From the IMG/VR virus record IMGVR_UViG_3300034073_000429, positions 1 to 42,718 of that record: a stretch of DNA of 42,718 bases. One strand, 5' to 3'. The notes under the pieces were generated by a model. The model had not been told where the DNA came from. It was given only the letters and a program-made list of their open reading frames with translations, and ran no database searches. Positions 4,134 through 42,718 of the stretch are shown one piece after another. A program made the translations under genes and the position numbers. The DNA is from a virus. Within the stretch, counting starts at the first letter, position 1, and every line of letters begins with the position of its first letter.

Positions 4134-5472
4134 CTGCTACATCCTTTGCAGGTTTATTGAGTTTGGCTTCATACTTGCCACTATCAAACTCAATCTCAGC
4201 AATGTCCATAAGGTCAGCCACAACCTCGGTCTGATCTTGCAGTTCGATACCAGCGCCATTAATGTTACGCAGGAAGGAAGCAATTTCACGAAGATCGTGC
4301 GGAGCAACATCACCAGCTTTGAGTTTAGGCATCGTTGCCCAGTCAAGGCCATTCAACTGCCACAGACGTTCAACAAGTTGCTTGTTCAATACGTCTACAA
4401 TCGTGTTGATGTAGCTTTCGAGGCTTCTGAGGAAGAGGTCGGTCTTAGTCTTTGACAGAGCGTAAGAACCAGAGCCACTACCAAGCATGAGAAACTCAGC
4501 CATAAGGCTCCGAGCAATATCATGTTGATAACGCTTGACAACAGGGTCAATGTCGATAGAACGGGAGCCATTAGCAGTAATCAACTCCACATCCATGAGA
4601 CGCTGATTAGTGGGTTTGCCATCAGCATCCACATACAGGTCTGAGGGGAGAAGGGCATAACCTTGTTCGTTGTTCTTCAAGTCACGAAGGATACGCTCAA
4701 ATTGGGTGCGAAGAGCAGCCTGATCGGCAGTAGCATCTGCACTCAGATACTCCGCAGGCATACGGCCAACAGGAACCCCGTGAAGTTCTCGTTCAATAGC
4801 AATAGCTTCATATCCCTGAATCTTGTTGAGATATGTGTAAGAAACATAAGCGTTTCGTAGGACTGAACGGCCAGAGGGATCATTGTTGAGACTCGTTGTA
4901 CGATAATACAGGGACTTTTCGACAGGAATCATCGCGGGGCGTTTACCCCAAGCAGCCTCTTGATACATACCGAGGATTTCACCAGTATTCTGGTCAACTT
5001 CAAAAGTCTCGACAGTCCAAGGTGCGCGGATAGCAATCTTCTTTACGCCAATGCGGCCATCATCGTATTTCGAGTTCTTTTTCGGGGAACGGGCATCACC
5101 ACCACGAACCTTGTAGACAACCTCAAACCACGAAAAACCGTAGGTCAGATACGACAAAGCCTCAGAGACGTGATCGTCAAGGCTGTGGTCCATGTCTTCC
5201 AGAACCGACTTGAGGAAGTCTGCCTCTCTTTTAGCAGCTTCACTGTCGTCAGCGGGAACCACATCAATCCTTACGTCACGAAGGGTTTGTTCAACAGCAT
5301 ACATGATAGAGCCGACAATCGCATTATTGTCTCTCATTTCTCTGTACTTCTGGATTGCCTTCTTGCCTTTGAGTTCTTGAAGAAACTCGTCAGCACGAAT
5401 ATCGCCTGTGTAGGTGTTTTTACCGTAGACGCCCAATTCGATCTTGGCGGCGGTTTCACTTAGCTTCTTCAT
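4126..5472 (-). CDS. Portal protein
   Basis: 448 residues. Length, order (terminase then portal then head genes) and sequence style (REMRDNNAIVGSIMYAVEQ near residue 45; LTYGFSWFEVVYK near 110; a C-terminal helical region listing MAEFLMLGSGSGSYALS) fit the DUF935/SPP1-like portal group. This dodecameric ring sits at the capsid vertex, through which DNA is packaged and ejected. The gene start overlaps the end of the HNH gene by 17 bp. Confidence 0.85.
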   Translation of the reverse strand: MKKLSETAAKIELGVYGKNTYTGDIRADEFLQELKGKKAIQKYREMRDNNAIVGSIMYAVEQTLRDVRIDVVPADDSEAAKREADFLKSVLEDMDHSLDDHVSEALSYLTYGFSWFEVVYKVRGGDARSPKKNSKYDDGRIGVKKIAIRAPWTVETFEVDQNTGEILGMYQEAAWGKRPAMIPVEKSLYYRTTSLNNDPSGRSVLRNAYVSYTYLNKIQGYEAIAIERELHGVPVGRMPAEYLSADATADQAALRTQFERILRDLKNNEQGYALLPSDLYVDADGKPTNQRLMDVELITANGSRSIDIDPVVKRYQHDIARSLMAEFLMLGSGSGSYALSKTKTDLFLRSLESYINTIVDVLNKQLVERLWQLNGLDWATMPKLKAGDVAPHDLREIASFLRNINGAGIELQDQTEVVADLMDIAEIEFDSGKYEAKLNKPAKDVADG

Positions 5473-6007
5473 AGCGGTTGTTCTTTCTTACATTAACTTC
5501 CGCTGGCAAGACTTGTAGGTTCCACGGAACATGGAGACCACACACATTTTTACCGCGTATTGGTATAATGTGGTCAACATGGTATGGTTCACCTGTAACA
5601 ATCTGACAATCTTTTGCCAAAGAGTAGATGCCCGCGATCTCTGCTTTTTGTTCTGCACTTAGCCATTTCGGAGTAGCACAATTTTTTGTGGAGTAGTATC
5701 TGCGACAAGACTCGTTCATGCGCGACCTTACAGAAGGCAGTTTAGTGTGCAACCTTTGCTGAGCCTTAATCTCTTCTTTTCTTTCCAGAGAAAGGTTTTC
5801 TCGATATTTCCTAGTACGGAGTTTTGCCCCGTTAAGAAAATACTCTTCATCAGATGCTTTTTTATTTTTTAACATCTGATAAGCACAAGTCTTACATTTT
5901 GCAGAATGACCGTCTTTCCTGCTTTTATCTTTAGAGAAAAAAGATAGAGAAAGGTTTTGTTTACAAATTGTACACTTCTTATCCACGAGAAAGTAATCCC
6001 TTTGCAT
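5456..6007 (-). CDS. HNH endonuclease inserted between terL and portal
   Basis: 183 residues from the ATG at 6007; a TTG at 6019 would add four. An N-terminal zinc-binding segment has CxxC pairs at about residues 12/15 and 38/41. The middle is very basic (residues 50-115). The C-terminus carries an HNH signature (YHVDHIIPI, then WNLQVLP and N-rich residues), the betabeta-alpha-metal nuclease fold. It overlaps the 3' end of terL and the 5' end of the portal gene, so it is fitted exactly into the operon. It may be a free-standing homing endonuclease. HK97-type phages also place an HNH next to terL, where it assists packaging, so that role is possible too. Confidence 0.8.
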   Translation of the reverse strand: MQRDYFLVDKKCTICKQNLSLSFFSKDKSRKDGHSAKCKTCAYQMLKNKKASDEEYFLNGAKLRTRKYRENLSLERKEEIKAQQRLHTKLPSVRSRMNESCRRYYSTKNCATPKWLSAEQKAEIAGIYSLAKDCQIVTGEPYHVDHIIPIRGKNVCGLHVPWNLQVLPAEVNVRKNNRYEEAK

Positions 6008-7361
6008 CTGCGTAAGCAAGGTTCAACTCTGGTTTTGCAACACCTTTTAAGGCTAACTCTGTCACGCCCCACACCATAGCGTCAAGCCTGTCAGGTGAAC
6101 CAATAGAACCAAGGGGTTCCCACTGGACCATCTGATCTTCGAGGGCATCTAGACCTTTAACATGCTTAACTCGCCCTCTTTCATAGAGAGCAGAGACAGG
6201 TTCAGCACGAGCGAACTTACCACGGGATGCGTGTACGAGTTTAATAGGAATGGTTTCATCTACACTTTTGAATGTGTAACGGACCATTTCCCCACCTTGG
6301 TTACGTTCTGCCACAATACGATCTGCACCGTATTCATGGTAGAGTTCAATGGCTTTAGCAGCCCAACCTTCGGGGGTGTATCTGTCTGTGGCATCTTGAA
6401 GGATATAGCAGACACCGTTGATGTCTTGCCCTGCAACCACAATACCAGTCATATCACTTTCACTGTTGCTGGAAACAGCCGGATCGACTGATACCACAAC
6501 ACGAGCAAGTGTCTCTGCAAATTCTACGGGGTTATCAACTTCGACTTCACAAGTCGCTAGGAGTTGACGGTTCCACAAGGCACCAGAGGCTTCATCTAGG
6601 ACTTCTGCATAGAGTTCCTGACGACCAAGGCGAGTGCCTTCATATTGAGATTTAACTGCTTCAATGTAGGTTGATGCAAGGTTAGCAGAGTTATCGAATG
6701 TAGAACCGTAAGTCACAACAGTCTTAGGGTTCTTGAGAATGTCTCTAACGAGTTTAGTAGGTTTAGGGGTTGTGGTGACACAGACTTGAGGGTGTTTACC
6801 TAGACGAAGACAGAAGGCAAGCATGTCCCAAGTGTCTCGGTCTTTGTTCCAAGCAGCAAGTTCGTCACACCAAGCAGCCTCAAACTGAGGACCACGAAGA
6901 CGTTCAGGTTCTTCTGCGCTAAAGAACTGGACGTAGGCACCGTTCTCCCACGTCAACACACGTTTGGTTGGCGACCACACAGGCTTACCAAGAGGGACAC
7001 CTTTGTGGGTCTTGTCACCCTTCCAACAACGAGCAAGGAAGCCAGACTCCCCATTAATCATAACTCGTTCAATGTCAGAGTTTGTGGCAGCGATGGCAGC
7101 GATACGCTTTGCACCACCTTTAACCTTGGAGCGGACCCATTCAACACCAGCACGGGTTTTACCGAAACCACGACCAGCATTGATAAACCAAGTGTTCCAG
7201 TCACCCGTAGGGGCAATCTGTTGGGGTCTAGCCCAGAACTCCCAATTATAGATCAACTCTTCGGCTTTAGCGGGAGGAAGCTGTGCCAAAATACCTGACA
7301 CATCCTCACCCATTGCACGAAGGTCATCAGCGTGGATCGGGAGGCCATTCTTGCCAGCCAT
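5979..7361 (-). CDS. terL: Terminase large subunit
   Basis: 460-residue DNA packaging motor. The ATPase domain has a Walker A motif GRGFGKT at 63-69, an acidic pair DE at 166-167 that may serve as Walker B, and a TTTPKP coupling motif at 196-201. The C-terminal RNaseH-like nuclease has Asp293 (SVDPAVSS), Glu352 (IVAERNQGG) and Asp427 (PDRLDAMVWG) as likely metal ligands. It docks on the portal and cuts concatemers. Start ATG 7361 lies 35 bp after the small subunit gene. The last 29-41 bp overlap the HNH gene, depending on which HNH start is used. Confidence 0.93.
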   Translation of the reverse strand: MAGKNGLPIHADDLRAMGEDVSGILAQLPPAKAEELIYNWEFWARPQQIAPTGDWNTWFINAGRGFGKTRAGVEWVRSKVKGGAKRIAAIAATNSDIERVMINGESGFLARCWKGDKTHKGVPLGKPVWSPTKRVLTWENGAYVQFFSAEEPERLRGPQFEAAWCDELAAWNKDRDTWDMLAFCLRLGKHPQVCVTTTPKPTKLVRDILKNPKTVVTYGSTFDNSANLASTYIEAVKSQYEGTRLGRQELYAEVLDEASGALWNRQLLATCEVEVDNPVEFAETLARVVVSVDPAVSSNSESDMTGIVVAGQDINGVCYILQDATDRYTPEGWAAKAIELYHEYGADRIVAERNQGGEMVRYTFKSVDETIPIKLVHASRGKFARAEPVSALYERGRVKHVKGLDALEDQMVQWEPLGSIGSPDRLDAMVWGVTELALKGVAKPELNLAYADAKGLLSRG

Positions 7362-7396: not shown

Positions 7397-7789
7397 TTAG
7401 TCATTGTCCGAGGTTTTGTCATTACGTTTCTTACCAAGGAGTGCAAGAAGATCATCAATAGCCCCAGTGTCCTCTTTGACTTCTTCGGGGTCAACTTCTT
7501 CAACCTTGATTGTCGGGTTCCAACCAGCCTTACTACGAAGGAAGAGTTCAGCAGCCTTTAGGTCTCCATCCAAAGCCTTGTTTACCACAACAGTGCCAAC
7601 TAGTTCTTGGATTTCAGCCCTTGCTGTGGCGATGTCTTGACGATAAGTCTTGTACATACCGTTCATCGAAGACGGAGCGTTGTCGTATTTTTGAATTTCG
7701 TCAAGGATGACCTTCATTGCTACACCAGCCCGAATGGCCTTACGAATGTAGGTAGCAATGTGGAGATTGTGTTTCAGCTTCTCAGCCAT
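7397..7789 (-). CDS. terS: Terminase small subunit (probable)
   Basis: 130 residues from the ATG at 7789, which has AGAGG seven bases upstream. Longer open frame to 8041 reads through the promoter region and is not credible. The first 50 residues look like a helical DNA-binding region, the middle (AEIQELVGTVVVNKALDGDLKAAELFLRSKAGW) resembles the oligomerisation/homing core of small terminases, and the tail is acidic (VEEVDPEEVKEDTGAIDD). Position directly upstream of terL supports recognition of the packaging site. A palindrome-bearing promoter lies about 130 bp upstream. Confidence 0.75.
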   Translation of the reverse strand: MAEKLKHNLHIATYIRKAIRAGVAMKVILDEIQKYDNAPSSMNGMYKTYRQDIATARAEIQELVGTVVVNKALDGDLKAAELFLRSKAGWNPTIKVEEVDPEEVKEDTGAIDDLLALLGKKRNDKTSDND

Positions 7790-8000
7790 ATCTTTAACCT
7801 CTACAATGTAGATTTCTATTTCTCTTAGTAATGGAGAGAAGGTAGCAAGCCACATCGGCACCCATTTCGTAATAGAATGATTCGGTGAGAGAATGTGATG
7901 GTTGCGGCTTGCTCGTGTATATATAGTTGTAATTACAACTCTTGTCAAGGGGTAGAGTGATAAAAATACAACTTTATTTGCATTTTCTACCACAAAACCT
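7790..8000 (-). promoter_or_regulatory. terS leader region
   Basis: 211 bp without a gene. It contains the leftward promoter at 7920-7948 and a leader of about 120 nt before terS. I see no intrinsic terminator after the 8001-8510 gene, so read-through from upstream promoters is possible. Confidence 0.6.
7920..7948 (-). promoter_or_regulatory. Late promoter with palindromic operator (upstream of terS)
   Basis: On the minus strand TTGACA (7943-7948) and TATATA (7920-7925) are separated by exactly 17 bases. The spacer is occupied by a perfect 16-bp palindrome AGTTGTAATTACAACT (7925-7940). The core 28 bases are identical to the rightward element at 21050-21077. It is a strong sigma70-like promoter by sequence, whose spacer is ideally placed for a dimeric repressor or activator. 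Confidence 0.8.
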
Positions 8001-8510
8001 TCAGTTTCTGAATAAGATGGGCATAGTTTCGTCCCATTCATGCAGAGTTTTACCAGATTCTAACCACCGATCCCTAACCTCTATAGCCTTCTGTTTGCTG
8101 TAGGTACGATAGACAGCTTGTTCCGGTCCCCTCCTAACCACAAACAACTTGTTCAAGGTTCCAACATAGATGTGTTCTTCCTCGGTCTCAAGGTAGTAGT
8201 TCTTCTCAATGTTCCTCTTCGGGTAGATACCCTTGTGGTCTACCACAACAAGATTAGAGTATTTGAGATTGTAACGGTCCCCATCCTTACATTGAACCTT
8301 GTCCTTCGGATCAAGATAGTCATCAGTCATAATCATGATAGCTACCCTAGACAGGTTAAAGCACACTACCTTCTTGGTAACTGGGTTCCTGTAGGTGAAG
8401 GTCTTATCTACCACAACCTTACCACTCACCTTAGATGTAAACTCCCCTGTATCAGGATCATAATACAAGATAGATTTCAGATCATCTACTGTGTAACCAA
8501 GATAGTCCAT
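8001..8510 (-). CDS. Hypothetical protein, possibly HNH/homing-endonuclease related
   Basis: 169 residues. The N-terminus (DDLKSILYYDPDTGEFTSK) resembles the opening of phage HNH_3/AP2 endonucleases (YDPxTGxFxWK). The C-terminus (YRTYSKQKAIEVRDRWLESGK) resembles the helix that ends AP2-like DNA-binding modules. No complete HNH catalytic triad is visible, so it may be a degenerate or purely DNA-binding member. It is the first gene of the leftward arm and is preceded by two leftward promoter-like elements. Confidence 0.5.
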   Translation of the reverse strand: MDYLGYTVDDLKSILYYDPDTGEFTSKVSGKVVVDKTFTYRNPVTKKVVCFNLSRVAIMIMTDDYLDPKDKVQCKDGDRYNLKYSNLVVVDHKGIYPKRNIEKNYYLETEEEHIYVGTLNKLFVVRRGPEQAVYRTYSKQKAIEVRDRWLESGKTLHEWDETMPILFRN

Positions 8511-8769: not shown

Positions 8770-8798
8770 TATATGGGTGTAATTATAACTGTTGTCAA
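8770..8798 (-). promoter_or_regulatory. Leftward promoter, diverged operator copy
   Basis: Minus-strand TTGACA (8793-8798), 17-base spacer, CATATA (8770-8775). The spacer carries a decayed version of the palindrome found at 7925-7940, matching mainly in the TGTAATTA core. It lies about 260 bp upstream of the 8001-8510 gene and within a 70-bp block related to 15010-15080. Confidence 0.6.
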
Positions 8799-8934: not shown

Positions 8935-8964
8935 ATAATACTGGGGGTCCCATGGGGGTGTCAA
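8935..8964 (-). promoter_or_regulatory. Leftward promoter with GGGG/CCCC palindrome spacer
   Basis: Minus-strand TTGACA (8959-8964), 18-base spacer, TATTAT (8935-8940). The spacer is symmetric around CCATGG, with runs of C and G either side. It is the strongest match to consensus in the control region and is well placed to start the leftward late transcript. Confidence 0.6.
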
Positions 8965-9159: not shown

Positions 9160-9196
9160 AAAAGAAAAGCCCGACTCCTTTACATAGGAATCGGGC
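9160..9196 (-). terminator. Intrinsic terminator of the leftward accessory unit
   Basis: Minus strand: an 11-bp stem (arms 9169-9179 and 9186-9196, one mismatch) with a six-base loop, followed by a T-rich tract (TTTTCTTTT). It lies immediately after the 9202-9435 gene, so it closes the 10790-9202 transcription unit and insulates it from the late arm. Confidence 0.8.
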
Positions 9197-10790: not shown

Positions 10791-10836
10791 TTTCTGCGTC
10801 CTTGTTTTGTGCTGCGTTGGATTGTTTGTGGCATAA

Positions 10837-10851
10837 GCGAATCCGATTCGC
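10837..10851. promoter_or_regulatory. Palindrome GCGAAT-CCG-ATTCGC
   Basis: Perfect 6-bp arms with a three-base centre, between the leftward promoter (10889-10916) and the first gene of the accessory unit. A plausible operator for that unit. Confidence 0.5.
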
Positions 10852-10888
10852 AACAGGGCAAAACAAGAAAACCAAAAAAAATTTGCAC

Positions 10889-10916
10889 TATATAATATGG
10901 GGAAGGATTCTTGCAA
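10889..10916 (-). promoter_or_regulatory. Leftward promoter of the accessory unit
   Basis: Minus-strand TTGCAA (10911-10916), 16-base spacer, TATATA (10889-10894). It sits about 100 bp upstream of the tiny membrane peptide and is the only good leftward promoter match before the 10790-9202 genes. Confidence 0.5.
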
Positions 10917-10922
10917 AGGCGC

Positions 10923-10951
10923 TTGACAAGCTGGACCGAATCAGCCATATT
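10923..10951 (+). promoter_or_regulatory. Rightward promoter into the putative origin
   Basis: TTGACA (10923-10928), 17-base spacer, CATATT (10946-10951). It shares TTGACA-N8-CGAATCAG with the promoter at 11299. No convincing gene follows for about 400 bp, so it may transcribe the iteron region, for example to prime or regulate replication. Confidence 0.5.
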
Positions 10952-11035
10952 CAATTCATGAACCGGGCAAGGACTCGGCTGGGCAGCTTCATGGCGGTCG
11001 CATAAAACACCGAGGCTGCGCGGTCGGAATCTCTT

Positions 11036-11052
11036 GTAACAAATAATGTTAC
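11036..11052. repeat. Inverted repeat GTAACA-AATAA-TGTTAC
   Basis: Perfect 6-bp arms around five A/T bases, directly followed by TTGACT. Looks like a protein-binding site next to the iteron array. Confidence 0.5.
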
Positions 11053-11150
11053 TTGACTCGACGTGCGAATCGTGCGAGAGTGGAGAGTCATGCCTTGACC
11101 AAGACTAGAACGAATCAAGAACAGGGTTTGTGGTCGATTGCAGGGGTTCT

Positions 11151-11285
11151 GACCCCCTGTAGTGGAAAATGATCGTCTCGCAGTCGCTTGCGACGAGAAC
11201 TCGTCTGAACCCCCTATAGTGGAAATTGTTCAGGGAACCCCCCTGTAGTGGAAAAGCGCAGCTTTGAACCCTATCGTGGAAAATG
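11151..11285. repeat. Four iteron-like direct repeats (candidate origin)
   Basis: Four copies of a roughly 21-bp unit with consensus GAACCCCCTGTAGTGGAAAA start at 11151, 11207, 11235 and 11266. The starts are 56, 28 and 31 bp apart, close to multiples of 28. Copies 2 and 4 carry a few changes. A GTCGC-TT-GCGAC hairpin (11183-11194) lies between copies 1 and 2. Regular direct repeats in a gene-free region between divergent arms are typical of replication origins or multi-site operators. Which of these it is cannot be settled from sequence. Confidence 0.6.
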
Positions 11286-11298
11286 TTCGTCAAACTTC

Positions 11299-11327
11299 TT
11301 GACAACCACAAACGAATCAGTTAGATG
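11299..11327 (+). promoter_or_regulatory. Early rightward promoter
   Basis: TTGACA (11299-11304), 17-base spacer, weak TAGATG (11322-11327). It is immediately downstream of the last iteron-like repeat and about 30 bp before the first early gene. It shares TTGACA-N8-CGAATCAG with 10923. Confidence 0.55.
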
Positions 11328-11356
11328 ATGTACAACAGAAATGAAAGAGGTTGAAC

Positions 11357-11605
11357 ATGACAAACGAAGAGGCTATCCAACTGGTACGGGAACTCGGACA
11401 CATCTTCTCTGTTGCACTTACAGAGGTGACTGGTCAATCCATTGACGACAAGTCCGATGTAATGAACGGTCTTGCAGGTTACGAGATACTGGAACTTAAA
11501 GGTAAGTGGGACAAGGTAGACAAAGCTGTTGACATTGTGATGCGAATCATATATGACATGGCTATGGAACGGTTCGACAAGGACCAGATCAAGATCGGGA
11601 GATGA
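11357..11605 (+). CDS. Early protein, unknown
   Basis: 82 residues from ATG 11357, which has an AGAGG ribosome-binding site (an in-frame TTG lies two codons earlier). Helical throughout, acidic, no Cys, no membrane segment. First gene of the rightward arm, so probably made first after infection, when host-takeover proteins are made. No family recognised. Confidence 0.65.
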   Translation: MTNEEAIQLVRELGHIFSVALTEVTGQSIDDKSDVMNGLAGYEILELKGKWDKVDKAVDIVMRIIYDMAMERFDKDQIKIGR

Positions 11606-13532: not shown

Positions 13533-13802
13533 ATGACCACCATCGACACTATCTCGCCCGTCGTTGTCAAAGACTTCATCAAGGGTCGTGGCACCCGTAT
13601 CGCTACTGTGACCTTCCTCAAGGCTGATGGCTCTGAGCGTGTTGCTAATGGTTTGTTTCGTCCCTCTAGCCATATCATTGGCTCTGAGCGTGGCTTCAAG
13701 CAGTCGGAACACATGAAGGCGATTGGGTTGCAGCCCTTCTACGATCTGCAAAAGAAGGCATGGATCAGCTTCTATCTGGACCGCGTACTTCACCTGAAAT
13801 GA
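13533..13802 (+). CDS. SH3-like beta-barrel protein (WYL_2/DUF2693-like)
   Basis: 89 residues. The pattern TVTFLKADGSERVANGLF in the middle and FYDLQKKAWISFYLDRV at the C-terminus fits the Sm/SH3-like beta-barrel family WYL_2 (DUF2693), common in phages and of unclear role, perhaps nucleic-acid binding. An AAAAGGAG ribosome-binding site and its own promoter imply strong expression. Codon use is more GC-rich than in the preceding small genes. Confidence 0.6.
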   Translation: MTTIDTISPVVVKDFIKGRGTRIATVTFLKADGSERVANGLFRPSSHIIGSERGFKQSEHMKAIGLQPFYDLQKKAWISFYLDRVLHLK

Positions 13803-14698: not shown

Positions 14699-14839
14699 AT
14701 GATTAACATCCTGCAACGCTGTGCTTGCTGTGGTATCAAGATGGATGATGATTTGTTCATCTTGTGTGAACAATGCCAAGAAGAACAAGATGCTCAAGAA
14801 CCTGACTTCGATGAATATGAGGAAGATGACTATGAGTGA
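14699..14839 (+). CDS. Small zinc-ribbon protein
   Basis: 46 residues. Two Cys pairs, CACC near residue 8 and CEQC near 24, make a likely zinc ribbon; the rest is a strongly acidic tail (EEQDAQEPDFDEYEEDDYE). An acidic tail can mimic DNA or bind a host enzyme. Starts 13 bp after the preceding gene. Confidence 0.5.
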   Translation: MINILQRCACCGIKMDDDLFILCEQCQEEQDAQEPDFDEYEEDDYE

Positions 14840-14951
14840 GTCTATCAAACATCATCTTGGAGAGGATTGGATCATGATCTTCAATGTAGATGACTACTAC
14901 TACCTCATTGAGGACTTCCTTGAGGTAGAAGAGGAAGAAGAAGATTACTAG
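14832..14951 (+). CDS. Small acidic protein
   Basis: 39 residues ending in FLEVEEEEEDY, with about one residue in three acidic. ATG overlaps the zinc-ribbon gene by eight bases, with GAGGAAG upstream. Possibly a DNA mimic or host-protein inhibitor; this is inference from composition only. Confidence 0.45.
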   Translation: MSESIKHHLGEDWIMIFNVDDYYYLIEDFLEVEEEEEDY

Positions 14952-15024
14952 ATAGTGGATAATCAATGATCCTTTTCGTTCATCCTTGTAGGTATATGGA
15001 ACCTTGGCGGAAAGGACATTTTAG

Positions 15025-15053
15025 TATGTGGTTGTAATCACAAGTTCTGTCAA
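15025..15053 (-). promoter_or_regulatory. Diverged palindromic promoter copy, leftward
   Basis: Minus-strand TTGACA (15048-15053), 17-base spacer carrying GTTGTAATCACAAG, weak CACATA (15025-15030). It points against the early genes, so it is either an antisense promoter or is kept as an operator for the rightward promoter next to it. Confidence 0.45.
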
Positions 15054-15088
15054 GACCCCCAGAAAGAAAATTTTTGTTGTAATTATGC

Positions 15089-15117
15089 TTGACAACCCTG
15101 TAGAGACAACATAGCTA
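15089..15117 (+). promoter_or_regulatory. Candidate rightward promoter
   Basis: TTGACA (15089-15094) preceded by a GTTGTAATTATGC half-operator. The -10 is weak (TAGCTA after 17 bases). Would serve the 15149 gene, which has a GAGAGGAGAA ribosome-binding site. Confidence 0.4.
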
Positions 15118-15148
15118 GGATGCTGGACCCCTGAGAGGAGAACAACGA

Positions 15149-15517
15149 ATGACACGCTTCTTTACCTACGACCAGAACAACTCTGGTGGAGTATTCGATC
15201 TGACCGACGATCTTAGGTTTAAGGTCCACTATAGTGACGGCGCGTTTGAGGAGATCACTTTCATGGGCGACACCTACAAAGATTGGGTTTACCGCACCGT
15301 CCCCCTGCCGCTGACCCAAGACGTGATCGCATGGGAGAAGCTGCCTGATTGGGTTGAGACTGTGATGCGAGACGAGAATGGTAAAGTTTTTGCCTCATAC
15401 ACCAACTATCCGTTGAACGGCAGCGGCATCCGCATCGACGACTTCCCCGGCATCGTGCAGATCGGGACAGTGGATTGGAAAGAGTCTAAGATGAGGAGAC
15501 CTAGAAATGCTGAGTGA
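15149..15517 (+). CDS. Hypothetical protein
   Basis: 122 residues, beta-rich with many Asp, Thr and Trp (RFKVHYSDGAFEEITFMGDTYKDWVYR). Clearly GC-richer at third positions than the small genes before it, so it may have entered together with the HNH gene downstream. No family recognised. Confidence 0.6.
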   Translation: MTRFFTYDQNNSGGVFDLTDDLRFKVHYSDGAFEEITFMGDTYKDWVYRTVPLPLTQDVIAWEKLPDWVETVMRDENGKVFASYTNYPLNGSGIRIDDFPGIVQIGTVDWKESKMRRPRNAE

Positions 15518-16079
15518 AATCGCTGGCAATTTCTTGCGCTATGACCCCACTACGGGAAAGCTTTTCTGGAAAGAGAGAACTGACTACACCTCTTTCAAAG
15601 ACGGAATGGGTGGCCAAAAAGCAAACTGCAACCGCTGGAACGGGCATTATGCAGGCAAGGAAGCGTTCACCAGCAAAACATCATGGGGCCACCTTCACGG
15701 CGCTATCCAAGGGAAAAGTTATCTGGCCCATAGAGTGGCGTGGGCAATCTTCTACGAAGAAGAGCCTCCAAAATATATCGACCACATAAATGGTGATCCA
15801 TCCGACAACAGGATTGAAAACCTCAGGGCTGTAACTGCTGCTGAAAACTCTCAAAATCAGAAACTCCGCAGCGACAACGCAAGCGGAACGCAGGGGGTGA
15901 GTTGGGACAGCAAAAACAAGAAGTGGATGGCGGCCATGCGAATTAACGGAAAAAGCTTTTGGCTTGGAAGGTTTGAGACCAAAGAACAGGCAGAAGCGGA
16001 AGCGAACCTTGCAAGGTCAAGGCTGGGCTTTCACGAAAACCACGGAAAAGACAGCAAACAGCGGAGGCCAAGGGGATGA
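15507..16079 (+). CDS. HNH/AP2 homing-type endonuclease
   Basis: 190 residues. It opens with FLRYDPTTGKLFWK, followed by an HNH_3 core (LAHRVAWAIF, then IDHINGDPSDNRIENLR at about residues 90-108). It ends in an AP2-like DNA-binding module (GVSWDSKNKKWMAAMRINGKSFWLGRF, then TKEQAEAEANLARSRLG). This is the classic layout of free-standing phage homing endonucleases. It overlaps the gene before by 11 bp and the gene after by four. Confidence 0.9.
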   Translation: MLSEIAGNFLRYDPTTGKLFWKERTDYTSFKDGMGGQKANCNRWNGHYAGKEAFTSKTSWGHLHGAIQGKSYLAHRVAWAIFYEEEPPKYIDHINGDPSDNRIENLRAVTAAENSQNQKLRSDNASGTQGVSWDSKNKKWMAAMRINGKSFWLGRFETKEQAEAEANLARSRLGFHENHGKDSKQRRPRG

Positions 16080-21049: not shown

Positions 21050-21078
21050 TTGACAAGAGTTGTAATTACAACTATATC
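21050..21078 (+). promoter_or_regulatory. Rightward promoter with palindromic operator (before ssDNA-binding gene)
   Basis: TTGACA (21050-21055), 17-base spacer, TATATC (21073-21078). The spacer contains the perfect 16-bp palindrome AGTTGTAATTACAACT (21058-21073). Its first 28 bases equal those of the leftward terS promoter at 7920-7948. It would boost the single-stranded DNA-binding gene and the nucleotide metabolism genes behind it. Confidence 0.8.
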
Positions 21079-21135: not shown

Positions 21136-21633
21136 ATGGCTAAGACCACCTACAAGGAAGTGACGACTGTTGGCCCGATTGAATGGGCTAAGATTTTTGA
21201 AGGCAACCGTGAAATGAACGGTTACGAAGGTGCCTACGACGACTGTGAAGGTGCCTACACGGTCACTCAAATCCTGACCAAAGACGAGTTTGCTAAACTG
21301 CAAAAGGCAGGCTCTCAGAAGAAGCCTATCCAGAAACGTCTTATGGAAGGTGAACTGGCTGTCAAGTTTGAACGTAAACATCTGGTCAAAGCTAAGAGTG
21401 GTGATGTGATTGCCCAAGCTGGTGGCGCACCGAAAGTTCTTGGCCCTGATGGTAAGACTTGGGATGTTGAAACTGATGGTCTGATTGGTAATGGCTCCAA
21501 GGCAGAAATCACTAACCTGATTACGACCTTTGCTGGTCAGGATGGTAAGATGATTTCTCGGACCTCTCTGACCAAGATCAAAATCCTTGAGCATGTCCAG
21601 TATGTTCGCCCTGAACAAGACGAGGCAGCATAA
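21136..21633 (+). CDS. Probable single-stranded DNA-binding protein
   Basis: 165 residues. Strand-rich OB-fold-like composition with basic residues, ending in an acidic tail (RPEQDEAA), as in T7 gp2.5-type proteins whose acidic C-terminus contacts polymerase and helicase. An AAAGGAGAG ribosome-binding site and its own promoter predict high expression, as expected for a stoichiometric coating protein. It lies directly after the polymerase. No decisive motif is visible. Confidence 0.6.
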   Translation: MAKTTYKEVTTVGPIEWAKIFEGNREMNGYEGAYDDCEGAYTVTQILTKDEFAKLQKAGSQKKPIQKRLMEGELAVKFERKHLVKAKSGDVIAQAGGAPKVLGPDGKTWDVETDGLIGNGSKAEITNLITTFAGQDGKMISRTSLTKIKILEHVQYVRPEQDEAA

Positions 21634-24543: not shown

Positions 24544-24703
24544 AATCTTAGGGTACAGGGTCTATGTGGTAGATAAAGACTATCTGTACTATGACACAGA
24601 AGATACGGCTATTGCGGCAGCTAAATTGTTTGCCACAGAAAACCGAAAGACAAAGGCAACGGTAGTGATGGAAGTGGAGATTTACAACAGTGGGGAAACG
24701 TGA
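24527..24703 (+). CDS. Hypothetical 58-residue protein
   Basis: 58 residues, two strands, a helix (TEDTAIAAAKLFATENRK) and a final strand. Overlaps the phosphoesterase gene by 17 bp and the methylase-like gene by 14. No family recognised. Confidence 0.5.
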   Translation: MVKDVKILGYRVYVVDKDYLYYDTEDTAIAAAKLFATENRKTKATVVMEVEIYNSGET

Positions 24704-25223
24704 CAACGATAAGTTCGAGAGAAAGGGTCGTGACTTTTATGCCACAATCGACCCTGCTGCTGTAAATGCTCTGGTCGAACATCTGCCACTACCAACAGCC
24801 TTCATCGAACCTTGTGCTGGGGCTGGTGATCTGGTGAATGAACTCTGTAAGCATCATGGCATTATCTGTGTGGGTGCCATGGACATTGAACCACAAACAA
24901 AAGATGTGGAGCAACGTAACTGTCTTGCTCTCAGTTGGGTAGGACCAGAGGTCACTCACTTTATCACCAACCCACCCTTTACATGGGACATGCTAAAGCC
25001 TATCTTAGATCATCTGCCCACCCTACTACCAACTTGGTTGTTGTTGCCTGCTGACTATATGCACAATGTTCGTATGGGTCCCTATATGGCTAAATGTGCT
25101 AAGGTGGTCAGTGTAGGTCGGATGTACTGGGAACCTAACAAGAAGAAGGGTGTCGATAACTATGCGTGGTACCTCTTCACCAACAACGAGACTGAGACAA
25201 CATTCTATGGAAGAAAACCGTGA
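24690..25223 (+). CDS. DNA adenine methyltransferase-like protein
   Basis: 177 residues. SAM-binding motif EPCAGAGDL near 39 and catalytic-type NPPF near 94 match the N6-adenine/class I methyltransferase fold. A FYATID segment at the N-terminus resembles motif X of this group. There is no separate target-recognition domain, so it may rely on a partner or modify few sites. Modification could protect phage DNA from restriction. GTG start. Confidence 0.75.
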   Translation: MGKRDNDKFERKGRDFYATIDPAAVNALVEHLPLPTAFIEPCAGAGDLVNELCKHHGIICVGAMDIEPQTKDVEQRNCLALSWVGPEVTHFITNPPFTWDMLKPILDHLPTLLPTWLLLPADYMHNVRMGPYMAKCAKVVSVGRMYWEPNKKKGVDNYAWYLFTNNETETTFYGRKP

Positions 25224-41661: not shown

Positions 41662-42115
41662 CAGGGATATACTGTTCCCCTGCCTCTACATTGTCGAACT
41701 GGTCAATAGCAAATGCAGGCTTGACACGATCCGGGTCTTCGTTAGCAACTTGCATCTGAGACGCCGAGTAACCACCACCAAAAACCCCGAGAGCTTTACC
41801 AGAGGTCTTCTTACCCTGTGCTTCAACCTGAGAGGCCAGTTGCTGATATTGTTTAGCGCGATCAGAGTATTTTGCACTCAAAGCACCATCAAGAGTGGTG
41901 TCAACCATTCGGCTGAACTTAGCAGCAATGGTACGGCAGACCCAAGCAGCAGCGTAGTAGATATTGTCATTAGCCTGCGACAAGCCAAAGACAATCTCTT
42001 CGTTTTGAACCAACTGGTCAGTCGTATCCGTATCTCCCACAAGCAGACGGACAGAGTTGCGGCGACCAGAGGCAGTCGTAGTATTCAAATCGGTAGGATC
42101 ATATGACCAAGCCAT
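41642..42115 (-). CDS. Head-tail adaptor protein
   Basis: 157 residues. N-terminal WSYDPTDLNTTTASGRRNSVRLLVGDTDTTDQLVQNEEI is the common opening of phage connector (gp6-like) proteins, followed by helices (IYYAAAWVCRTIAAKFSRMVD) and a disordered end. Docks on the portal ring. Confidence 0.75.
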   Translation of the reverse strand: MAWSYDPTDLNTTTASGRRNSVRLLVGDTDTTDQLVQNEEIVFGLSQANDNIYYAAAWVCRTIAAKFSRMVDTTLDGALSAKYSDRAKQYQQLASQVEAQGKKTSGKALGVFGGGYSASQMQVANEDPDRVKPAFAIDQFDNVEAGEQYIPDEPNGV

Positions 42116-42130
42116 CCAGTCGCCCTCTCA

Positions 42131-42544
42131 TCATTCAAACAGTTTCCTATGAGTGTCACGCCAGAACTTGATCCGACGAACTTGTGTCTCAACGTCCTTC
42201 GGGACTTTAGGACATTTCTTCTCTCGAAATTCTTTTGCAGTCTTAGCCTTTTCGTGGAACTTCTCATTGAGTTTGTCAATGTAAGCGTGAAGTTCGGTAA
42301 GGCTCATGCCATCAAGGTTCTTGTTGAATACATCAGCAAAAACTTCTTTTTCTTCTTCCTCATTGTCTTGGTGATAGAAGAAGTCTTGATTGAACAGGGT
42401 CAGGATCGTTTGATACGATTCACCAGCACCTCTCCAATCGTAGTATTCACCCCTCTTACGGAGCCTACCACTAAGATGCACATCCTTTTTGATGTACAGC
42501 TTTCGGGTAGGATCGAAGAGGGAGAGAAAATTAGTCGGGATCAT
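42131..42544 (-). CDS. Hypothetical head-region protein
   Basis: 137 residues, charged and helical, with an EEEEKEVF stretch and a basic C-terminus (RRIKFWRDTHRKLFE). An AAAGGGGAGAG ribosome-binding site precedes the ATG. It lies between the capsid and adaptor genes, where phages often carry a small accessory. The first 14 codons also appear at 1-43 because of the terminal overlap. Function unknown. Confidence 0.6.
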   Translation of the reverse strand: MIPTNFLSLFDPTRKLYIKKDVHLSGRLRKRGEYYDWRGAGESYQTILTLFNQDFFYHQDNEEEEKEVFADVFNKNLDGMSLTELHAYIDKLNEKFHEKAKTAKEFREKKCPKVPKDVETQVRRIKFWRDTHRKLFE

Positions 42545-42718
42545 TCTCTCTCCCCTTTCATGTTAATTAGGCGATAACGCTGTCGATAACCGCGCCCAGA
42601 TCAGCCGAAACAACCTTGTGGTCGTAGGCCAGATTGGCTTCCAGAACTTCGGCAACACCGTCGATAGCCAGATAGTCACCACGATACGACTTGATCGCAA
42701 TGCCATGGCCCGAAGCGT
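42502..42718. repeat. Terminal overlap, right copy (same as 1-217)
   Basis: This is the right-hand copy of the terminal overlap. It includes the start of the 42131-42544 gene and the last 50 codons of the major capsid gene, cut by the contig end at 42718. It should not be counted as a second capsid gene. Confidence 0.93.
42567..42718 (-). CDS. Major capsid protein, C-terminal part (contig-end copy)
   Basis: Last 50 codons and stop of the gene annotated at 66-1073, seen again because of the terminal overlap. Its N-terminal side is truncated by the end of the sequence. Confidence 0.9.
   Translation of the reverse strand, partial: ASGHGIAIKSYRGDYLAIDGVAEVLEANLAYDHKVVSADLGAVIDSVIA

Follow-up and report, generated by a model that had tools for sequence, protein, structure and literature searches.

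Phage-type-specific promoter spacers and an apparently nuclease-dead HNH-AP2 protein as their candidate regulator in siphovirus-like phages

According to our analysis of IMG/VR record IMGVR_UViG_3300034073_000429 (42,718 nucleotides, hereafter the window), four promoters probably form one regulon, whose spacers carry a phage-type-specific code predicted to be read by the product of the gene at 8001 to 8510 on the minus strand. The evidence taken from the sequences consists of a spacer code common to the promoters of one genome, its covariation with this gene, the homology of the encoded protein to HNH-AP2 proteins, and the replacement of its catalytic Asp-His pair. The record looks complete, with a direct terminal repeat of 217 bp, and the phage is siphovirus-like as judged by its tape measure gene and equipped with a T7-like replication module. 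The features referred to below are as follows.

P_terS: 7920 to 7948, minus strand; TTGACA-AGAGTTGTAATTACAAC-TATATA, facing terS/terL and the late genes
P_ssb: 21050 to 21078, plus strand; TTGACA-AGAGTTGTAATTACAAC-TATATC, facing ssb, ThyX, exonuclease, and RNR
P3: 8770 to 8798, minus strand; TTGACA-ACAGTTATAATTACACC-CATATA, preceding the candidate regulator gene
P4: 15025 to 15053, minus strand; TTGACA-GAACTTGTGATTACAAC-CACATA, antisense to the last part of the rightward early operon
P5 (tentative): 15089 to 15117, plus strand; pointing toward the replication genes and divergent from P4, with a core that is degenerate in the window
P_L: 8935 to 8964, minus strand; strong sigma-70 promoter (TTGACA-18-TATTAT, 11/12 consensus), upstream of P3
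Terminator-like hairpin: 9169 to 9196, minus strand; between the DUF7227 gene and the P_L operon (one found against 1.9 in shuffles, weak alone)
terS: about 7397 to 7789, minus strand; next to terL, probable start at 7789 with a GAGG Shine-Dalgarno sequence
gp2.5-like single-stranded DNA-binding protein gene: 21136 to 21633, plus strand; phrog_112 (E 4e-5), followed by ThyX, exonuclease, and RNR
Candidate regulator gene: 8001 to 8510, minus strand; 169 amino acids, nuclease-dead HNH part (about residues 1 to 92) and AP2-like beta-beta-beta-alpha domain (about residues 113 to 151)

The inverted copies at 7921 to 7948 and 21050 to 21077 are identical at 28 of 28 positions and, the terminal repeat aside, constitute the longest exact match in the window; by our own arithmetic, about 2.5e-8 matches of this sort are expected by chance. 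Both promoters read TTGACA-AGAGTTGTAATTACAAC-TATAT(A/C) with a spacer of 17 bp, and both contain a perfect 16-bp palindrome (7925 to 7940 and 21058 to 21073), the final base of which is the first base of the −10 element. The original prediction had described this pair, leftward from 7948 and rightward from 21050, together with the palindrome and with the genes downstream, namely terS and the packaging/late genes on one side and the single-stranded DNA-binding gene and nucleotide metabolism genes on the other, and we confirm each of these points. Its two copies are real, but two leftward promoters, P3 (from 8798) and P4 (from 15053), had been missed: when the whole window was scanned for the palindrome with up to three mismatches, it occurred at four places only (0.21 expected; none of 100 shuffles reached four), and the two further places, 8775 to 8790 and 15030 to 15045, each lie inside the spacer of one of these TTGACA promoters. 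P3 and P4 also share the early leader ACTAAAANGTCCTTTCCGCC, corresponding to the first approximately 20 transcribed bases. P4 and P5 are divergent and 35 bp apart (window 14900 to 15125), and in the relative G022 the P5 core has one mismatch to the type core. The leftward transcript of P4 would run antisense into the early operon and is a possible antisense RNA. A function of the spacer itself as RNA is unlikely, since it lies upstream of the expected transcription start; an Rfam search gave no match.

Relatives were collected by IMG/VR scans with TerL and with DNA polymerase (80 loci each). Among the closer relatives, TTGACAA and ACAACTATAT are retained in the promoters of terS and of ssb, and it is the middle of the spacer that differs. 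An 11-bp core, defined as spacer positions 3 to 13, is near-identical within one genome and different between phages, with at least 12 versions. The type spacers are AGAGTTGTAATTACAAC in the window, AACCCTGTGGATACAAC in G004, AAAGCCAACTGTACAAC in G022, AGAACCAACAATACAAC in G029, AGAACGAGCATTACAAC in L021, AGACTTGTAACTACAAC in G026, and AAGTAGTTGATACAATC in G009, and more distant phages carry others. Since most core versions are asymmetric (CCCTGTGGATACAAC, GCCAACTGTACAAC, ACCAACAATACAAC, and others) and the perfect palindrome is limited to the type of the window, neither the palindrome, expected by the original prediction to be conserved in related phages, nor the dimeric regulator deduced from it is the conserved feature, and we rejected the 16-bp palindrome in that role.

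Across types, the flanks of P_terS are 75 to 100% identical and its core 27 to 73%. Cores of P3 and P_terS agree at 10.0 of 11 positions within a genome against 3.7 between genomes (permutation p = 1e-5, 10 types). For P_terS and P_ssb, which are unlinked and 13 kb apart in the window, the corresponding values are 10.7 and 5.6 (exact p = 1/720, 6 types, where the two sites lie on contigs from different samples for L021/L098 and on two contigs of a single sample for L226/G028), and for P4 and P_ssb they are 9.4 and 4.9 (p = 1/120). Four loci with new core types, retrieved by protein search and outside the first test, match internally at 10 to 11 of 11 positions. In the close clade (window, G004, G022, and G029), sites within two mismatches of the type core are found at TTGAC promoters only. 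A core that is common to promoters 6 to 13 kb apart within each phage and differs between phages bears out the earlier claim of selection and strongly supports that of one regulator for both arms. P_L is kept in relatives across core types and has no type-specific core.

No near-identical DNA was found among phage isolates, the nearest isolate being CRP-6 (L210). There, a different element, AAATC(A/G)GACGTCATACATA, is common to two promoters, one ahead of ssb (8013 to 8094) and the other in the stretch before terS (about 41,980 to 42,700). As CRP-6 has this shared element and is without an ortholog of the 8001-8510 gene, another regulator must exist in that phage; its gp66, of 50 amino acids, is faintly AP2-like. 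P_L of the window, whose spacer is of the GGGACCC type and which is closely followed by GATTC, resembles a CRP-6 promoter.

While the original prediction held that no gene for the regulator is recognizable, the gene at 8001 to 8510 is a strong candidate. It is located between P3 and P_terS, at one fixed locus in relatives, and wherever a shared-core pair was found in a relative, an ortholog lies between the two promoters, down to 30% identity. Among 13 close genomes, the distance between copies of this gene correlates with core distance (Mantel r = 0.82; partial r = 0.89 given terL), while the distances of terL, portal, and terS do not correlate significantly. The gene ranks first of 34 genes for core correlation (r = 0.80) and has no similar copies between types (minimum distance 0.26), whereas nearly every other well-covered gene has near-identical copies across some core types. 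G004 and L008, for instance, show a terL distance of 0.00, a core distance of 0.68, and a distance of 0.40 in this gene. G018, complete-looking at 42.6 kb, is without the gene, and its two promoters are without a common core. Because P3 and P_terS flank the gene, the covariation could partly reflect exchange of a cassette; P_ssb and P4 are unlinked to it, but provide fewer cases than P3/P_terS. Covariation of operator and regulator is a mark of phage repressor-operator immunity systems, and it is present here between the putative operators and the putative regulator gene. The temperate lifestyle of such systems has no counterpart, as no match to an integrase (PF00589) or to HTH_3 (PF01381) was found in the window.

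The AlphaFold2 model of the protein (pLDDT 88.8, pTM 0.54) is HNH-type in its N-terminal half and beta-beta-beta-alpha in its C-terminal half. Its top fold match in the PDB is I-HmuI (probability 0.99, E 2.6e-3, TM about 0.41), and of the 48 viral fold matches at E < 1e-3, the named ones are mostly HNH. PHROG_99 is matched by 20 of 25 family members. With HHalign, the protein is colinear over its full length with an intact HNH-AP2 family (probability 95%), which includes the product of window 15507 to 16079 (plus strand), an intact HNH_3 and AP2 protein and likely active homing endonuclease encoded in the same genome. The AP2-like half alone gave no significant profile match and no match to Pfam AP2. 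Every aligned member has other residues (QC, VC, IY, and others) in place of the catalytic Asp-His, and the protein is therefore not classed as an active homing endonuclease. A search of the genome collection with alignment A2 returned no homologues. The best explanation for these sequence features is that the gene encodes a domesticated, nuclease-dead homing endonuclease, homologous to the HNH-AP2 homing endonucleases. Type-diagnostic residues occupy 7 of 19 positions in the beta-hairpin at residues 35 to 53 against 10 of 150 elsewhere (Fisher p = 7e-4), and none falls in the AP2-like half, the most conserved part of the protein. This pattern would fit a protein that reads its site in two parts, the core, which varies, and ACAAC, which does not.

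In the mechanism that we propose, sigma-70 RNA polymerase would contact the constant −35 and −10 elements, while the 8001-8510 protein would bind the 11-bp spacer core, probably as a monomer on an asymmetric site, with the variable N-terminal beta-hairpin reading the variable core and the conserved AP2-like domain reading the constant ACAAC beside the −10. P_L, which lies upstream of P3 and has no type core, can supply the protein early, and the regulator would probably be produced first from this strong promoter. It would then limit its own promoter P3 and hold back the packaging and late promoter P_terS, the ssb and nucleotide metabolism promoter P_ssb, and the antisense promoter P4. Release might come about, speculatively, as replication multiplies the operators and dilutes the regulator, and P4, once released, would yield transcripts antisense to the last part of that early operon. 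Of the two possible signs of regulation, we lean toward repression, since a protein bound in the spacer would sit within the footprint of the polymerase and these promoters combine a perfect −35 with 17-bp spacing.

In the main rival reading, which we judge to be distinctly less probable, the protein is instead an activator, made early from P_L, binding beside the −10, aiding sigma-70 in opening the middle and late promoters, and driving its own promoter in a positive feedback loop. In favor of this, none of the four sites belongs to an early promoter, several −10 elements are weak (CATATA, CACATA, CACTTA, and TAACTA), and GcrA provides the precedent of a sigma-70 cofactor in Alphaproteobacteria (PMC7987155). 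The perfect −35 and the 17-bp spacing speak against activation, as does G018, which keeps an equally good P_terS without the regulator gene; moreover, fast switching of types would be harder if an activator were essential. GcrA and like factors, acting at sigma-70 promoters in Alphaproteobacteria, could also suggest that a host transcription factor reads the spacer, the more so as the phage early promoters carry GANTC. We regard this as very improbable, given that the core differs among phages with terL 95 to 100% identical and tracks a phage gene, and that the exact promoter pattern of the window is absent from a genome collection of 84,980 species.

A different phage protein might read the core, the HNH-AP2 gene only traveling with it in a cassette. 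The gene at 14721 to 14951 also correlates with the core (r = 0.76, in 6 genomes only), CRP-6 has its shared element without the HNH-AP2 gene, and the window encodes, at 13533 to 13802 (plus strand), an 89-amino-acid WYL_2-domain protein that is a plausible DNA-binding protein. The WYL gene is kept across core types and was rejected as the regulator since it is 97% identical to that of a phage of another core type; ssb and nearly all well-covered genes are likewise almost identical between some different core types, and only the HNH-AP2 gene accompanies every shared-core P3/P_terS pair, G018 being without both, so that we consider this explanation unlikely. Finally, the 28-bp identity and the inverted orientation could be taken for recent promoter duplications or recombination sites of no regulatory meaning, which we find scarcely credible: promoter flanks are orthologous between types and the core alone is replaced, jointly at four places, and this variation of the core within conserved flanks refutes such a reading.

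For the reading that we prefer, a repressor derived from a homing endonuclease, known systems offer partial parallels. I-TevI of phage T4 (PMC2988022) is a homing endonuclease that binds an operator overlapping its own promoter and lowers transcription. It is, however, an active, intron-encoded GIY-YIG enzyme acting on its own promoter, whereas the protein considered here is HNH-AP2, apparently nuclease-dead, and free-standing, and its candidate site recurs in phage promoters that are unlinked to its gene. CapR of PLE (PMC10448857) is a repressor descended from the DNA-binding domains of T5orf172 homing endonucleases and acts on phage genes, but its gene is carried by a satellite and directed against the helper phage, while here the gene is the phage's own and belongs to another endonuclease family. 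In the cluster A mycobacteriophages, the L5 and TipsytheTRex repressors, monomers with two DNA-binding domains, and their asymmetric 13-mer stoperators diversify together among close phages (PMC6550527, PMC9283540); those phages are temperate, their repressors are of the HTH type, and the sites number more than 20, in contrast to the four to five sites found here, all in promoter spacers, in a window where integrase and HTH_3 protein were not found. With the HNH-AP2 (IPA-HNH) homing endonucleases, the protein shares full-length colinear homology to an HNH-AP2 protein, but its Asp-His is lost and its gene is fixed between two promoters with covarying spacers. Thus I-TevI, CapR, and cluster A each share part of the arrangement, and none is an HNH-AP2 protein controlling the promoter spacers of its own phage; a literature search, mostly outside subscription journals, did not find such a protein either. 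An HNH-AP2 case would add to the few homing endonucleases turned regulators.

Plant AP2/ERF factors (Magnani 2004, as cited in PMC10448857) stand beside the HNH-AP2 homing endonucleases among the closest known systems. Tentatively, an HNH-AP2 endonuclease that lost its nuclease and kept its DNA-binding parts might have become the master regulator of a lineage of apparently lytic siphophages, with many mutually orthogonal codes by which a resident phage would silence superinfecting phages of its own type; the origin proposed for plant AP2/ERF factors would then have a counterpart among viruses. The data suggest an immunity-like diversification in phages without sign of lysogeny. With a dozen or more matched pairs of promoter type and candidate regulator among otherwise very similar phages, they offer a natural series in which one can test directly how DNA-binding specificity evolves, and the pairs would supply small orthogonal transcription parts.

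GANTC, the CcrM methylation site, is strongly depleted across the window (65 sites against about 190 in Markov simulations), yet 12 of these sites cluster within the 800 bp of early promoters at 10801 to 11600. Several early promoters, also in relatives, have CGAATC about 15 bases past TTGAC, which suggests that early promoters may depend on host GcrA/CcrM; a spacing rule for GANTC in the early promoters was not significant (5 against 2.1 expected, simulation maximum 7). An open reading frame between terL and portal (window 5456 to 6019, minus strand), absent or just 38 to 46% identical in relatives, is possibly an inserted nuclease gene, and window 24690 to 25223 (plus strand) encodes a short DNA methyltransferase-like protein (phrog_799).
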